Source: a virus
IMG/VR virus record: IMGVR_UViG_3300005918_000176
Coordinates: 1-20,245 of that record
Length of the DNA: 20,245 bases
Direction: 5' to 3' (one strand)
Below the pieces are notes generated by a model. The model ran no database searches. It was not told the DNA's origin and was given only the letters and a program-made list of their open reading frames with translations. The translations under genes were made by a program, and so were the position numbers. Every line of letters begins with the position of its first letter. The first letter of the stretch is position 1. This document shows, one piece after another, positions 9,268 through 17,794 of this stretch.

Positions 9268-12200
9268 TTATTGTCTCCCCTTACTTCCATATAGTAGATT
9301 AAAGTTACTCATTCTTGTTCTGATGCCTTCGTTTATCGCGTCAACCGTTTTTTCTTTCGACTCTTTGGCAAGTGCCTTGTTTGCTTCCACCTCATTTCGC
9401 CTGCCCCTTAGCCTCCGGATCTCTTTTCGGTCAAGCTTTACCCTGTCTCTGAATCGTAGTTGCCACGAATATTTTGTCCTAACACTGGAAAGCTTTTCAA
9501 TGTCCTTAATTTGTGCAAAATGCTTTTCAGACTTTTCGGCATATCTTATTTCATTAAGATTATCATAAAACTTTGTCCGAGTATAGAATTCGCTTTTCTC
9601 ACCGTAAAGCCTTCTGGCGAAAGGAATCTTGCTAACCTTAACATCTTTCTTTGAAAGGGTTGCGGGCAATTCAAGGACATTACCCATAAACTTGCCCGCC
9701 CCACCGGTAAAGGTGTCTACAAACAAGTCAATAATCTCTGGAGATATATCAATTTTTCCGGGGACAACCTCGTCTCCACCGGTCAAGTCATTTAATTCCT
9801 TAGATATGACTTTAGATAAACCCCTGACACTTTTCCAGTGCATTTGATATTCAGGTTTCGGAACGTCAAATGGCATTTGCTCTGGTTTAAGAGGAGCTCC
9901 GGCAAAGTTCTTATTCTCTTTCCATTGAACAAACGGATCAAGTATGGTCGGAGCAATAAATTGTAGAATAGATCCTTCCCCTCCTACAGGATTAAATGAG
10001 CTTATGACCGCACTCGCCAATTTTCCAGCAGCACCTATAGCGGAGAACTCTTTTTTATTTGGATCTACTGCCTCGCCTATTACCTGGCCGAGCACATGGA
10101 GGGTGTTATATCCCCATGGAAGCGGACAAATCTTAAAATAGTCTCCGTTCGGACGCATAAGAATCAGATTTCTCTCCTTAATCCAGCTAGGGATTTTGTC
10201 GTATTTCTTTTCTCCGTCGTCGTCGTCACCACCTAATGTCCTGTTTAAAATGTCCAGCATTACAGCGAAACCAACGGTCCCGTACATCATAGCTCGAACT
10301 TTCTTATTTCTTTTTGCTGCCATTATTAGCCTTGCGCTGCCCTGTATGTTGGCACCAAAAAACAAGTAGAAAGCACCCAGGGCCTGGCCGACGTCTCCCC
10401 TGCGGTTAAAGTTAACGGTAAGGTTTTTAGCCGCTGAAGCAGCCTTTTCCTTGCTGATGCCAGCCTTTACAAGATGTTTGTATGTTGACAGCCTGATCGC
10501 ATTCTCAACGGCAACATTTTCTCGGCTGATCAAGGTAAAGGCACTCTTAATAATTTTTCTGGCGGATACCCCGGGACCAGACCCAAGCAATGAAAGCTTT
10601 TTCTTAAGAGCCTTCTCCCTGGACTCTGTGTCTTTGTAGTACTCCATCCATCCGGTTTGGCCACCATGTTCTCTAAAATCTTTATAGTCTTGTGACCATT
10701 CAGTATCGTATTTTCCCCTAATGCCCTTCCGTATCCCGGCAAGAGCCTTAAAGACATCTTTGAAAATTCGGCCCCGAATTTTCTCGGCCTGTGTGTCGTT
10801 GATGTTATAGCCAGCGGTTTGAAGATCTTTCAGAAAGTTATTTAATATAAATTCAGGGCTAGCAGCAGTATTCACTATTGCCAGGTAGCGATTTATCTTA
10901 GACATTATATTTATAATGGCATTACCGCTTCCAGATCCCAGGTTTTTCAAGCCAATGGCTATTCTTTGGGCATGAACGTTCTGCTCGTCGAAAGTTATCG
11001 TGTGCTCAACCCCGTCAACCTTTACCACTAAGACATTATCTTTGAATTTGTACGCACGGTCCTTTCCATACACCACTTCGCCCAAGGAAGAGGGTAGCCC
11101 GGTCATTGGATCAACCTTGCCGTCAAACACCCGAGTTTGTTCAGGGTAACCTTCTGGCCGTTTACCGCGACTTCTCCAGCTCCTTTTGCTCAGTAAAGGC
11201 TTTAATTCCGGGGCGTCAACCTCCCACATGCTGCTTTTATGCTTACTCGCAAACTTGAGCATTGCACGGCCAATCTTTGCTTTCTCTGCCCTTATGATTG
11301 AGGCCTCATGTTGAGCCAAAATGTTAGTAAGTATGTTCACCGCACGTCTCTGTGAGCTACCAGTGAGGCGCCGCTTTGACTCAGGACCGGCAATATTCAT
11401 CCCTTGCCCTCTTTTTGGCATCCCGGCGTCTTTACCTTCTCTCTTGAGAGGGACATAAAACTTGTAAGCACTGGACCACGCCTCAATTTCCTCGGGAGTA
11501 GCCAAGCCCTCCGCTACAAGTAAATCCCTGGTTGACCCAACCACATCGTCAACCTTTTTGGCAAGAATTTCCATGGCCTCATTGCCTTCGTACTCATTAA
11601 GGATGCCATCGGCCTCTTCGTCTGTCATCCCGGAAAGGGCTTCATTGTCCTCTCTTTTTGGATTCAAGGCCATAAATCTGGCGTTGGCCTCTCTGGCGTG
11701 TCTCGCATAAAGGTATCGCTCAAGATTTTCAAGACCGATGCCTGTCTTGACTATGTCTTCCGTGAGCGGATCAATTACGTTTGCGTCAAATTCCTCTACT
11801 CGTCTCGCGACCTGATCATGGTAAAGCTCTTCAGTCTGATAGGTGTTTTCATCGTCCTCAAGCTCTACATGCGGAGGTAATACAATGGCATCCTGTACAA
11901 TCTTGAGAGAGTTGAAACGGTCCTGAATTTTGAATTGAATAAGGTTGAAAGCCTGCCGCACACTTCCTTCTATAGGTAGGTCGAAACCTTCAGGAGATAT
12001 GGGACTTTCAAAAACCTTCTTCGCAACCTTAATCCCTTCAATGTTTTCGGTGGTTAACGAAGCCCCTGTACCCTTGAGGGTCTGCTCGACCAGTGCAGCG
12101 GCCCAGGCAGAAAGGTCCTGCTCATCCGAAAGCTTTAAATGTGCCGGAAGCTGCGGAGGCCCGCCCCTTATTATACCGTGATAGGACTCTATCGCCTCCC

Positions 12201-14979
12201 TTAGAAATTGTGACCTAAAGCTAAGGTCAAGGGCTTCAGCATGGTTTCCCTTTTTCTTTTGAACTTCCGATTCCATTAAGACAGAATGTCTCATTTTATC
12301 AATCTGTTCTATCTCTTCTGGAGTTGCTATTTTGCCAAAGTCTGCGGCCTCCCTCGCGCTTCTGAAGTCTGGAATCCCCTCGGAAAGCTTGAGGTCGCTA
12401 TCTTTAATCGATATGCTGGTAGCCTTAAGGTTTCTCGCTGTTTTCCCTATAGCACTTGACGCAAGGGCAATGTAGTCCTCTTCGGTGAACCTGCCAGGGC
12501 TTACGCCAAGATGTTTCACAAGCCAAGCCTTGGTCGCTGCAATTAATTTTCTGTGCCACTCAAGCTTTCTGTTACCCCTGGCCTCCACAAAGTATGCAAG
12601 GGCCTCTTCGTTTACATTTTCACGGGGAGTTGATGAAGGAACCACGGCGTATGCTCTTGCAATGGCCCGGCCCAGGTCTGAGTTTTCATATCTCTTGGCA
12701 GCAAAGTTAGCAAAGATATACTGGCTTAACTTTTCGCCAAAGATTTTTTTGTAGCCATAGTGGACACCCAGTTCGTGAAGAAGCACAGACCAGGCATGCC
12801 CTTTTTTGATTCGACCAGGAATCATATATACAGTGCTTGATCCATCTGAATATGTAACAATGAAAGCCTTGGCTGTTTCTACCGTTCTGCCGAACTTGGC
12901 TGTCGCAGCCTTGCCATCTATGAACCTGATCTTTCCTTCTCTGATAAGGGAATTAGTGGCATCATTCCCTATGTGGCTGGATATTTCATTCCCGATAGAT
13001 ACAACATTACTGGCTATCTGCCGACGTAACAGTAGTGGCGTCTTGCTCTTTAACTTTTCCAAAGAAGTACTATCAAAGGATGATTCAAACGCAGGTCCCT
13101 TTTCGCCCTCTTTCTCTTTTTGTTCAGATGCCTCAAATTCTACATCAGCGGTGCGGTCACCTTCGTCGGGTATCCTGTGTTGCTTGCTGTCATCAGGTGG
13201 TGCAGATCGTTCACCAGGGACACCGCCAGCGCCTTCGGCCCCAGCTTCTCCCGTCCCTCCGGTTGAAAGAGAGCTTCCTCTTCCCCCTCCTCCAGATAAT
13301 TCAGGAACCCCAGGGCTTCCGCCGGTTCCAGCATCAGAAGGTACTCCACCTGCTCCCTCAGCTCCGGAAGGTTGTTCCGGTTGAACAATGGCACCTCCTG
13401 GTACAGCGCCCACTCCATCAGCTTCAGGGAGTGTAGCTCCCAGTTTGACGGGTTCTGATCGAGTTCCTGAAGCGCCTTTTTTGCCAGTAAGTTGATCGGT
13501 TCCTGGTTTTCCTTGTTCGCGTTGTCTTGCATTGTAGACATCCTCCAATAGTGGCACGGCATCTTCTACCGCTTCCACTGATTCAGTTACAATATTTTCG
13601 AGTGAAGACGTTTTACCTGTCTTATCTATAACTATAAGCACGTTATCGAAGTTTGTCCCATATTTCACGTATTCCTTTCCAGAAATAGGTATAACGGCCT
13701 TAACATTATATTTAGATGTAATGCCAGCCCACCATTTCTTGAAGGTAGGTTTATCCATTGCCATGCCACGACCAGCAATGGCCACAAGGCGCCCGCCTTC
13801 CTCAAGCCGCTTAAGCCCCTCCTCTATGTGGTCGGCACCAACCTTTGTATCCATCTTGGTGCCTTTCATGTTTACGTCAGCGGAGAAGGGCGGATTCATC
13901 AATACGACTGTTGGTTTCACGTTCTCGGGAAGAATGGCATTCAGGTGTGCGGCATTCTCGCGGTACACCTTAATACCAAAGTTTTCGAGGATATCTGCAC
14001 GGCGGTCGCTGATCTCGTTCGCGACTACTTCTTTAGGGTTTTGAGACTGTGCCGCAGCGACAAGGCTACCGACGCCTGCACTCGGTTCGAGGACAACATC
14101 GTTCCTGCCTATGCTGGCCACCCATGCAGCCAGATAACTATGTGATGGAGGCGTTGAAAACTGTTGTAAGTCAATCTGGTCTTTCGTGCGCTTCGTTTGA
14201 GTAACGATCCCGGCCATTGTTGCTTTTAGATATCTTATTGCCTCTGACGCGGAGGCTATCCCCTTCACTGCAACTTTCACCCACAAGTTAACCCCAAGCT
14301 CTTGCGCTTCGTAGGCATCCCTGGACGTATATTTTCCGTCAGTCTGAGTGCCACCAAAGGCATCGTCAGCCTGCCTAAACAGATCTCTCCATGTGTATTG
14401 CTTGCCAGAGGATATCATTTCAGTGACCCAGGAAGCCAGCTTTACAGTAGGTGTTTGTTCCTTTTTCGGTTCTGTCTTCTTCTCCGGGGTTGCAGGTTCT
14501 TCTATCTGTTTAAGCCCGGCACTGGTTAAAGCCCTGTCGATGGTTTCGCCTATCGACCATTGAGCAGGCGCTCCGGGTCCGAGGGTTTCCCTGACGCCGC
14601 TTTCTGTTATCTGTAGATAGTACGTACTTCCGGGCTTATCACGCATGACCTTATAGGTTATGCCTTCGTGCTGTGCTACACCTACACTTTTAAGACGTTC
14701 AATAAATTTATCCTTGGTATATAAACCCGGCTTCTCTGGTTTGATGGTCGCAGCAGGCTTCTCAAATTTCTCCGGACCCTTATAATTCTTTTTAAGTACA
14801 GACACGACGCTGTCATACTCAGTCTGCGCTTCACTTACCTTGGCCTTGACAATACTAAGAATAGCTTCATGATCGGAGATACCCTTGTCTTTGCTGACTT
14901 CTCGCGCACGGGAAACCATTTCCTTGATCTCTTTGGGCTTAAAATTGTTTTTGCGTAAACATTTTATGGCATTTTTCAT
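9268..14979 (-). CDS. Giant polyvalent protein: DNA methyltransferase, zinc peptidase and LPD-type domains
   Basis: The 1903 residues form several blocks. After a helical N-terminus comes an adenine-type methyltransferase (QFSTPPSHSYLAAW at about 273; motif I VLEPSAGVGSL, 296-306; motif IV NPPF, 362-365). A Gly/Ala/Pro-rich linker spans about 490-605. A zinc metallopeptidase-like domain has HELGVH at 735-740 with NEEALAYF downstream. Long helical regions follow, then a C-terminal part from about 1360 (NRYLAIVNTAASPEFILNNF, RRGDVGQALGAFYLFFG) resembling the LPD38 domain. This is the layout of phage polyvalent proteins, which are packaged in the virion and enter with the DNA; P1 DarB is a functional analogue that shields DNA from restriction. 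It lies among virion genes, as expected. The start overlaps the previous stop (TAATG), with GGGGA upstream. Confidence 0.85.
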   Translation of the reverse strand: MKNAIKCLRKNNFKPKEIKEMVSRAREVSKDKGISDHEAILSIVKAKVSEAQTEYDSVVSVLKKNYKGPEKFEKPAATIKPEKPGLYTKDKFIERLKSVGVAQHEGITYKVMRDKPGSTYYLQITESGVRETLGPGAPAQWSIGETIDRALTSAGLKQIEEPATPEKKTEPKKEQTPTVKLASWVTEMISSGKQYTWRDLFRQADDAFGGTQTDGKYTSRDAYEAQELGVNLWVKVAVKGIASASEAIRYLKATMAGIVTQTKRTKDQIDLQQFSTPPSHSYLAAWVASIGRNDVVLEPSAGVGSLVAAAQSQNPKEVVANEISDRRADILENFGIKVYRENAAHLNAILPENVKPTVVLMNPPFSADVNMKGTKMDTKVGADHIEEGLKRLEEGGRLVAIAGRGMAMDKPTFKKWWAGITSKYNVKAVIPISGKEYVKYGTNFDNVLIVIDKTGKTSSLENIVTESVEAVEDAVPLLEDVYNARQREQGKPGTDQLTGKKGASGTRSEPVKLGATLPEADGVGAVPGGAIVQPEQPSGAEGAGGVPSDAGTGGSPGVPELSGGGGRGSSLSTGGTGEAGAEGAGGVPGERSAPPDDSKQHRIPDEGDRTADVEFEASEQKEKEGEKGPAFESSFDSTSLEKLKSKTPLLLRRQIASNVVSIGNEISSHIGNDATNSLIREGKIRFIDGKAATAKFGRTVETAKAFIVTYSDGSSTVYMIPGRIKKGHAWSVLLHELGVHYGYKKIFGEKLSQYIFANFAAKRYENSDLGRAIARAYAVVPSSTPRENVNEEALAYFVEARGNRKLEWHRKLIAATKAWLVKHLGVSPGRFTEEDYIALASSAIGKTARNLKATSISIKDSDLKLSEGIPDFRSAREAADFGKIATPEEIEQIDKMRHSVLMESEVQKKKGNHAEALDLSFRSQFLREAIESYHGIIRGGPPQLPAHLKLSDEQDLSAWAAALVEQTLKGTGASLTTENIEGIKVAKKVFESPISPEGFDLPIEGSVRQAFNLIQFKIQDRFNSLKIVQDAIVLPPHVELEDDENTYQTEELYHDQVARRVEEFDANVIDPLTEDIVKTGIGLENLERYLYARHAREANARFMALNPKREDNEALSGMTDEEADGILNEYEGNEAMEILAKKVDDVVGSTRDLLVAEGLATPEEIEAWSSAYKFYVPLKREGKDAGMPKRGQGMNIAGPESKRRLTGSSQRRAVNILTNILAQHEASIIRAEKAKIGRAMLKFASKHKSSMWEVDAPELKPLLSKRSWRSRGKRPEGYPEQTRVFDGKVDPMTGLPSSLGEVVYGKDRAYKFKDNVLVVKVDGVEHTITFDEQNVHAQRIAIGLKNLGSGSGNAIINIMSKINRYLAIVNTAASPEFILNNFLKDLQTAGYNINDTQAEKIRGRIFKDVFKALAGIRKGIRGKYDTEWSQDYKDFREHGGQTGWMEYYKDTESREKALKKKLSLLGSGPGVSARKIIKSAFTLISRENVAVENAIRLSTYKHLVKAGISKEKAASAAKNLTVNFNRRGDVGQALGAFYLFFGANIQGSARLIMAAKRNKKVRAMMYGTVGFAVMLDILNRTLGGDDDDGEKKYDKIPSWIKERNLILMRPNGDYFKICPLPWGYNTLHVLGQVIGEAVDPNKKEFSAIGAAGKLASAVISSFNPVGGEGSILQFIAPTILDPFVQWKENKNFAGAPLKPEQMPFDVPKPEYQMHWKSVRGLSKVISKELNDLTGGDEVVPGKIDISPEIIDLFVDTFTGGAGKFMGNVLELPATLSKKDVKVSKIPFARRLYGEKSEFYTRTKFYDNLNEIRYAEKSEKHFAQIKDIEKLSSVRTKYSWQLRFRDRVKLDRKEIRRLRGRRNEVEANKALAKESKEKTVDAINEGIRTRMSNFNLLYGSKGRQ
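13140..13532 (-). CDS. Probable overprinted gene inside the polyvalent gene (+1 frame)
   Basis: ATG 13532 is preceded by GGAGG with a 9-nt gap. The 130-residue product (MQDNANKENQEPINLLAKKA, then NWELHSLKLMEWALYQEV, LPELREQVEYLLMLEP and LNYLEEGEEEALF) reads as a normal acidic helical protein, with CTG, GAG, AAC and CAG codons dominating. It covers residues 483-613 of the giant protein, where the main frame encodes only a Gly/Ala/Ser/Pro-rich linker. That contrast, plus the binding site, is the case for a real second gene. The last dozen or so residues look less natural. The family and function are unknown. An accidental open frame caused by the linker composition is the alternative. Confidence 0.55.
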   Translation of the reverse strand: MQDNANKENQEPINLLAKKALQELDQNPSNWELHSLKLMEWALYQEVPLFNRNNLPELREQVEYLLMLEPAEALGFLNYLEEGEEEALFQPEGREKLGPKALAVSLVNDLHHLMTASNTGYPTKVTAPLM

Positions 14980-16585: not shown

Positions 16586-17088
16586 GTGGTAATCTCCATT
16601 GCTGTATCTTCCTGTTGTTTCGCCTGATAAGCAGCCACCACTTCAGGGGTATGAAGTTTTTCTGCTATTGCTTTGCTCATCACGTCTGCCCTATCTGGAT
16701 CATCACCGGGATTTATCCAGGTCCGGTGGAATTTCTTACTCACCTCTTCTCCTTCGTCGAAAATTCTGGTTATTCGTCTAACTGCAATCCTGCCAAAATC
16801 ATCGAGCACACGATCATATGTTACGATCTCTTCAAGCCCTGTCCCGGTCGGCTCTTTCTTCTCAATAGCAAAAGCGGCCAGTGTGTCCTTATTGGTAATC
16901 GCCGCAACTATATCCTTTGACCTGTCGTCCCAATCTGCCATGTGTCCTGGATCGATAGGTGTCATAGGATCGGAGTATTTATGATCAATAAAGTTACCTT
17001 TATCATCTTGGTATTCAGTAATTATTCTGAGTTGAAGGTTTCCGTTTTCGGTTATTGAATGGTGAAATTTCATATTTTTAGACAGCAT
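16582..17088 (-). CDS. Phage protein of unknown function, 5' end altered by homing endonuclease insertion
   Basis: The 168-residue product contains MKFHHSITENGNLQLRIITE, DPGHMADWDDRSKDIVAAI and TWINPGDDPDRADVMSKAIAEKLH. No family is recognised. The first ATG at 17088 lies within the last codons of the endonuclease gene (11-nt overlap). A second ATG at 17073 gives MKFHHS. The original start appears to be the stranded MKKLLKFHHS exon at 17814-17849, on the other side of the endonuclease gene, so the current start was probably supplied by the insertion. Expression may be reduced or depend on readthrough from the endonuclease gene. Confidence 0.7.
   Translation of the reverse strand: MLSKNMKFHHSITENGNLQLRIITEYQDDKGNFIDHKYSDPMTPIDPGHMADWDDRSKDIVAAITNKDTLAAFAIEKKEPTGTGLEEIVTYDRVLDDFGRIAVRRITRIFDEGEEVSKKFHRTWINPGDDPDRADVMSKAIAEKLHTPEVVAAYQAKQQEDTAMEITT
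17060..17072. repeat. 13-bp direct repeat flanking the homing endonuclease gene, left copy
   Basis: TGGTGAAATTTCA occurs here and again at 17824-17836, one copy on each side of the endonuclease gene. Here it encodes the MKFHH start of the interrupted gene. Allowing one mismatch, the match extends 3 bp further. Confidence 0.8.
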
Positions 17089-17794
17089 TATCCTGTTTTC
17101 CCTGTTTTTTCTTTTCCCAGTATTTTTTCACTCTAATACTTCGTGCCAACCTTCGTTCTTTTGTATATGACGCCCTCATCCTTCTCTTTGTTTCTTCTGT
17201 TTTTGGGACACCCTTCTTAGCTTTACTTATCTTTGCTTTATGTTCTTCTGTAAACACCCTACCTTTTTGTGCTTTACTCATATTTTTTATCTGTTCTTCA
17301 GTAAATATTATCCCCTTATGAGCTTCACTCATTTTCTTTTTAGTCTCTTCAGTAAGCTTTCTGCCATAAGCAGGGTGGTTTCTTATATCGACATATCTTG
17401 CTTTGGCACTTTCACTTATCTTACGCTTTGCTTCTTCGGAACATTTTATACCTTTCTGAAATTCAGACATTTTTAGTTTGGATTCTTCACTATGCTTAAA
17501 ACCAATTGCACTTCCACCACCAATTAAATGATTGTATCCTTTTTCAATTACCCTGTAATAACAAATATAATATATTTCTAATCTATTTAATTCTTCTCGG
17601 TCAGCACACTCATGTATAATCTTCCATTTAAAATCTTTTGGGTTATACTTTCTTAATGCCTTATAAAAATGGTTATCATACCTGTTCCCTTTGGCTTCAT
17701 AATAATGCTCTTGTTTTCTTTTTTTAAGAGTATGTATAGTTTGACCAATATACATCTTGCCATTTAATTTATTTGTAGCTGAATAAATAATCAT
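17078..17794 (-). CDS. GIY-YIG homing endonuclease with NUMOD3 repeats
   Basis: The N-terminal domain is GIY-YIG: MIIYSATNKLNGKMYIGQT, KKRKQEHYYEA, FYKALRKY and RLEIYYICYY. It is followed by about six NUMOD3-like DNA-binding units with the form [FKR]-x-[ST]EE-x-K-x-KMSE-x-x-KG, for example RKLTEETKKKMSEAHKG and RVFTEEHKAKISKAKKG. Such proteins are free-standing phage homing endonucleases that cut an allele lacking the gene and copy themselves in by repair. The gene is clearly more AT-rich than its neighbours. It sits between the tail fibre gene and the rest of an interrupted gene, and a 13-bp direct repeat flanks it. Start ATG 17794 has no clear Shine-Dalgarno sequence; a TACAAT box lies just upstream. 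Confidence 0.92.
   Translation of the reverse strand: MIIYSATNKLNGKMYIGQTIHTLKKRKQEHYYEAKGNRYDNHFYKALRKYNPKDFKWKIIHECADREELNRLEIYYICYYRVIEKGYNHLIGGGSAIGFKHSEESKLKMSEFQKGIKCSEEAKRKISESAKARYVDIRNHPAYGRKLTEETKKKMSEAHKGIIFTEEQIKNMSKAQKGRVFTEEHKAKISKAKKGVPKTEETKRRMRASYTKERRLARSIRVKKYWEKKKQGKQDNAV

Follow-up and report, generated by a model that had tools for sequence, protein, structure and literature searches.

A +1-frame gene very likely nested in the interdomain linker of a phage large polyvalent protein

A virus record of 20,245 bases (the window, analysed at its full length) holds a giant open reading frame within which a much smaller frame lies complete, in the +1 register. The locus raises the question of whether the small frame is a gene in its own right or an accident of the low-complexity linker encoded by the same bases. 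The original prediction favoured a gene, as a hidden phage protein made from the late mRNA. We find that the small frame is very likely a real, selected overlapping gene; its translation is inferred, and the strength of this conclusion does not extend to its function. The features of the locus are collected in Table 1.

Table 1 Features of the host gene and the nested gene in the window
Feature	Coordinates	Strand	Basis or remark
Host gene, large polyvalent protein (LPP), 1903 aa	9268..14979	minus	Open frame; PHROGs and Pfam matches
LPD38 domain of LPP, residues 1591-1788	9616..10209	minus	Pfam PF18857, E 1.1e-37, above cut-off
DNA methyltransferase region of LPP, residues 196-480	13540..14394	minus	Ends just 5' of the nested ATG
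Gly/Ala/Ser/Pro-rich main-frame linker, LPP residues 483-612	13144..13533	minus	Translation; overlaps the nested gene
LPP region 3' of the linker, residues 670-849, HELGVH (metallopeptidase-like)	12433..12972	minus	tblastn and motif
Nested gene (family A)	13140..13532	minus	130 sense codons and TAG stop; +1 frame of the LPP
Shine-Dalgarno-like GGAGG	13542..13546	minus (plus strand reads CCTCC)	9 nt 5' of the nested ATG

The host frame encodes a phage LPP, since the LPD38 domain, matched above the Pfam cut-off, and the methyltransferase region occur in one giant chain. The protein matches two PHROGs families of 2.8-3.4 kaa, phrog_14770 (E 9e-167) and phrog_616 (E 3e-133). The methyltransferase region shares 44 and 42% identity with the relatives L008 and L092, respectively, matches phrog_9133 (E 5e-18) and carries the motif EPSAG...NPPF, and its Pfam MTS match falls slightly under the cut-off. 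The region 3' of the linker was matched by tblastn to positions 8273-8833 of L008 and to L088, and its HELGVH motif was read from the sequence. LPPs and DarB-like antirestriction proteins were defined by Iyer et al. 2017 (PMC5512222), and the DarB-like LPP of JC1 has been detected in virions (PMC9144972). LPPs of this kind are virion proteins and are thought to protect incoming DNA. Most relatives have LPPs of 2.5-5 kaa, whereas that of the window, at 1903 aa, is short; compared with L008 it lacks some 4.8 kb separating the methyltransferase from the peptidase-like region. A GIY-YIG homing endonuclease with NUMOD3 motifs (17078-17794, minus strand; phrog_314, E 2.5e-38; NUMOD3, E 1.6e-17) stands among the LPP-side genes.

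The nested frame runs on the minus strand from an ATG at 13532-13530 to a TAG at 13142-13140 and is a complete open frame, contained entirely within the host ORF over the residues of the linker. Its predicted product is acidic (21 Asp and Glu against 10 Lys and Arg; pI 4.6), and AlphaFold, given an alignment of 37 homologous sequences, predicted an all-helical protein of five helices (pLDDT 86.7, pTM 0.80). The descriptive claims of the original prediction thus held: a 130-codon +1 frame with GGAGG 9 nt from its ATG, an acidic helical product, and a Gly/Ala/Ser/Pro main-frame linker between methyltransferase and peptidase domains, the latter being peptidase-like by motif. The linker also contains the peptide GAEGAGGVP twice. 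As 8 of the 9 codons differ between the copies, no recent DNA duplication is indicated, and the nested gene does not explain the repeat.

The main rival explanation is that the frame is a by-product: a Gly/Ala/Ser/Pro linker would leave the +1 frame open by chance, and the protein-like look of the translation would reflect base composition. Considered alone, the window gives this rival some support. When the linker was recoded synonymously, the +1 frame stayed open in about 5% of trials (P about 0.05). This openness is only weak evidence for a gene, because a linker poor in hydrophobic residues seldom makes +1 stops; it has few codons with T at position 2, the source of such stops. The +1 coding score is 0.177, against 0.020 ± 0.041 under the recoding null, and none of 5000 recodings reached it; the score is high in the ORF only. 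Permuting the linker's own synonymous codons did not lower it, however, so that the permutation test does not discriminate, and the high score reflects the unusual synonymous usage of the linker overall. Long open +1 runs also occur in many LPP linkers, and about ten other ORF clusters in LPPs are accidents of this kind. The case from the window alone is therefore merely suggestive, and it is the comparative evidence that excludes chance.

LPP relatives were gathered through the conserved C-terminal part of the protein and later through the methyltransferase region. When all ORFs embedded in the first set were compared with the window protein, only one was significantly homologous, a +1 ORF located at the corresponding position in L092 (E 6e-5). 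The second set, collected by methyltransferase, contains ORFs about 100-150 codons long, most of which start 8-14 nt past the methyltransferase match; a GGAGG often precedes their ATG by 9 nt. An iterative search of 30,757 ORFs, seeded by the window protein alone, grew from 11 to 35 to 40 members (family A), and all 40 lie in the +1 frame of an LPP directly after the methyltransferase domain. Removal of identical copies left 37 distinct loci. Relatives with an intact main frame in which the +1 frame had acquired stop codons, or the binding site had been lost, would have counted against the gene. Instead, all 37 distinct sequences keep the +1 frame open over a homologous protein that ends at its own stop, 36 start with ATG, and in 31 the start is preceded by a Shine-Dalgarno (SD) core no shorter than 4 nt, while the other 6 have no clear SD.

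The similarity within family A is not a by-product of similar linkers. Scored against a profile of the 36 other sequences, with the window left out, the window protein reached 66.1 bits (E 7e-18). The best of 5000 synonymous linker recodings with phage codon usage scored 20.5 bits and the best of 5000 permutations of the linker's own codons 39.1 bits, so that none of the 10,000 came near. The family is not universal: with loci cut by a contig end excluded, 9 of 46 methyltransferase loci gave no family A match at E < 1e-3. Searches of cultured phages by tblastn and blastn found no family A member. Exact-peptide-word searches of viral contigs with the window protein or the whole LPP returned no match, as exact words from a single sequence are too strict. 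A weak genome match in G695 was rejected as a homolog, as it sits in a coiled stretch of an unrelated gene.

We compared substitutions between the frames in seven pairs of relatives, using nucleotide alignments built without reference to either frame. No close relative of the window was available, and the selection was measured in relatives whose nested proteins are at most 31% identical to that of the window, not in its own lineage. In the methyltransferase region and downstream, substitutions in all seven pairs follow the LPP frame and fall mostly at position 3. Within the nested ORF the pattern shifts to that of the nested frame, with main-frame position 1 changing most and position 3 least (Fisher p for the switch, 3e-6 to 7e-9 across the pairs). 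In the pair L177-L201, for example, changes at main positions 1/2/3 number 2/2/25 in the methyltransferase and 24/4/5 in the overlap. Of the 33 changes in this overlap, 24 are synonymous in the nested frame (9.8 expected) and 6 in the LPP frame (10.1 expected). Chance ORFs in these two genomes show the opposite pattern, for example changes of 0/24/0 at nested positions 1/2/3. Thus, purifying selection acts on the nested frame in relatives of the window and switches on at the ORF; this was the frame-by-frame comparison by which the original prediction was to be checked. Accidental ORFs change mainly at main position 3, the reverse of family A, and together with the failure of recodings to reproduce the family homology and the existence of standalone homologs (below) this all but excludes the by-product explanation.

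The main frame is also maintained. Had the nested protein alone mattered, 10.3 stops would be expected in the LPP frame of the window and 6.5 per locus on average; none is observed across the overlap in any of the 37 loci. Comparison of the loci therefore shows that both frames are actively kept open. The main-frame residues at the start of the overlap, Asn or Asp and then a codon beginning with G, are those required to spell the nested ATG. These data bear on a second rival, in which the +1 frame of the region is part of the LPP and two compensating frameshifts (by mutation, assembly error or programmed shifting) hide an in-frame helical domain. Such joins do occur: in Sinorhizobium phage PBC5 a frameshift has apparently fused part of an LPP with a nested gene from a different family. 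Against it stand the conserved ATG, mostly with an SD, and the own stop of the 37 distinct nested ORFs, and a main frame that stays open throughout despite the stops expected; we consider this rival very unlikely.

The two frames also differ in composition. Each main-frame codon is made up of position 3 of one nested codon and the first two positions of the one that follows. Over the 37 loci the nested proteins contain 16% Leu, 9% Glu and 4% Gly, and the same bases in the LPP frame give 20% Gly, 10% Pro, 9% Arg, 9% Ala and only 3% Leu. The codon offset thus turns a Leu/Glu-rich helical protein into Gly/Pro/Ala/Arg/Ser, which supports the proposal in the original prediction that the linker composition may be a by-product of selection on the other frame.

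Codon usage has been described as a criterion for the older of two overlapping frames (reviewed in PMC8227390). The synonymous-codon fit to the remaining LPP is 0.07 for the nested frame and -0.15 for the linker, compared with 0.14 for the rest of the LPP, and in 27 of 37 loci the fit of the nested frame exceeds that of the main frame. The window itself carries no such signal (-0.09 nested against 0.02 main). In addition, two tandem standalone homologs are present in a 4.8-kb prophage-like contig (G145:C26:1-4836, L212), where they stand beside a DEAD/DEAH-type helicase gene; a further match, in L210, is again nested. From the standalone homologs and the codon-usage criterion we infer that the nested frame probably came first and that the linker was overprinted on it.

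An alternative is that the nested gene is real but was born inside a pre-existing linker, by classical overprinting, with the standalone copies as later escapes. In its favour, nested copies far outnumber standalone ones, de novo genes within older ones are reported to lie most often in the +1 frame (PMC8227390), and the codon fit in the window is slightly better in the main frame. Against it, in most loci codon fit points to the nested frame as the ancestral one, the nested protein has an ordinary composition and a confidently predicted fold while the linker is of low complexity, and the pattern is repeated in many families. This order of events remains possible, but we prefer an older nested gene. 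The original prediction is refined accordingly in two respects: of the two frames, that of the nested gene is probably the older, and such nesting is a general feature of such phages, wider than was proposed. Its claim of a hidden protein from the late mRNA is supported by comparison as far as the gene is concerned; translation and the late mRNA remain inferred.

We propose that ribosomes starting at the internal ATG, 9 nt from its GGAGG on the LPP mRNA, would make the 130-residue helical protein, while those in the main frame would read the same bases as a spacer between the methyltransferase and the peptidase-like region. On the inferred history, the LPP would have become continuous by reading through the small gene in a second frame, leaving the spacer as a by-product. 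The function of the small protein is a matter for tentative inference only. Its fixed place beside the methyltransferase and its production from the LPP gene suggest a partner in fixed linkage, possibly a chaperone, a packaging adaptor or an inhibitor restraining the methyltransferase or peptidase in the producing cell, and we hold this with low confidence. The standalone copies indicate that the protein need not act with an LPP. Database comparisons gave no further guidance: Pfam had no match for the nested proteins of the window, L092 and L008, PHROGs gave a single weak match for one of the 37 family members, the PDB yielded no significant match by sequence, and Foldseek searches of the PDB and BFVD with the predicted fold returned only insignificant matches.

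We explored nested frames elsewhere in LPPs. In the first LPP set, 26 of the 33 +1 ATGs with a 6-nt SD had a coding score above 0.05, and no ATG in the +2 frame combined a 6-nt SD with such a score. Homologous nested-ORF clusters showed conservation of the nested frame in 13 instances, family A included, and of the main frame in 10, with 3 undecided; the 10 main-frame clusters are accidental ORFs. About a dozen further small +1 families were observed in LPP linkers, mostly of 60-120 codons and with clear SDs, at loci including L116, L117, L021, L037, L040, L059, L084-L086 and L150. Family C has a confident predicted fold (pLDDT 89.2), and profile comparison found no relationship between it and family A. 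Members of families B and C are also nested, in the +1 frame, in LPPs of cultured phages, namely Agrobacterium phage Atu_ph08, Vibrio phage VvAW1, Ochrobactrum phage POI1126, ZX1 and Ruegeria phage 45A6. The family C match in 45A6 lies at 30763-31119 on the minus strand of KT820175.1. In all GenBank records of LPPs that we checked, including those of these phages, the nested gene is unannotated.

In PBC5 (L218), orf33 and orf23 are seemingly one LPP split by a frameshift, which apparently runs orf33 into a nested family B gene; phrog_938 seems to contain this join at its C-terminus. A PHROGs match of family B to the C-terminus of an 'endolysin' was accordingly rejected as an in-frame homolog and attributed to the apparent fusion of the LPP piece to the nested gene.

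The arrangement resembles that of the phage spanin genes, in which the whole of Rz1, a small gene with a start site of its own, lies within the larger Rz on one strand but in a different frame. This nesting is annotated in BcepIL02, near its LPP. The proteins and their role differ: Rz1, a lipoprotein, is the partner of Rz in lysis, whereas here the host is a giant LPP and the overlapped part an interdomain spacer. The host gene, with LPD38 and a methyltransferase, belongs to the LPPs and DarB-like antirestriction proteins of PMC5512222; a text search of that paper turned up neither an account of nested genes in LPPs nor the word overlap. With de novo overprinted viral genes (PMC8227390) the locus shares dual coding, internal overlap, and one low-complexity and one ordered product; here, however, it is the small ordered product that is probably ancestral, the spacer of the giant being derived, and the arrangement recurs in some 13 nested families. 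Our search of the open-access literature found no account of genes that overlap, or are nested in, those of polyvalent or DarB-like proteins; subscription papers were mostly outside its scope, and a prior description is not excluded.

Gene callers miss such nested genes, and a whole layer of phage proteins has been overlooked beside proteins thought to disarm host restriction. The nested genes offer a straightforward physical explanation of why giant proteins contain Gly/Ala-rich spacers. They also lend themselves to testing how one sequence can serve two frames and which of these came first. A bolder reading, for and against which we find the evidence evenly poised, is that giant LPPs reached their continuous form by extension across small genes that were already there, read in a second frame, so that many of their low-complexity spacers would be by-products of nested +1 genes, which would together form a large unannotated set of phage proteins. 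Since cultured phages carry such genes (45A6, Atu_ph08, POI1126 and VvAW1), direct testing is feasible.
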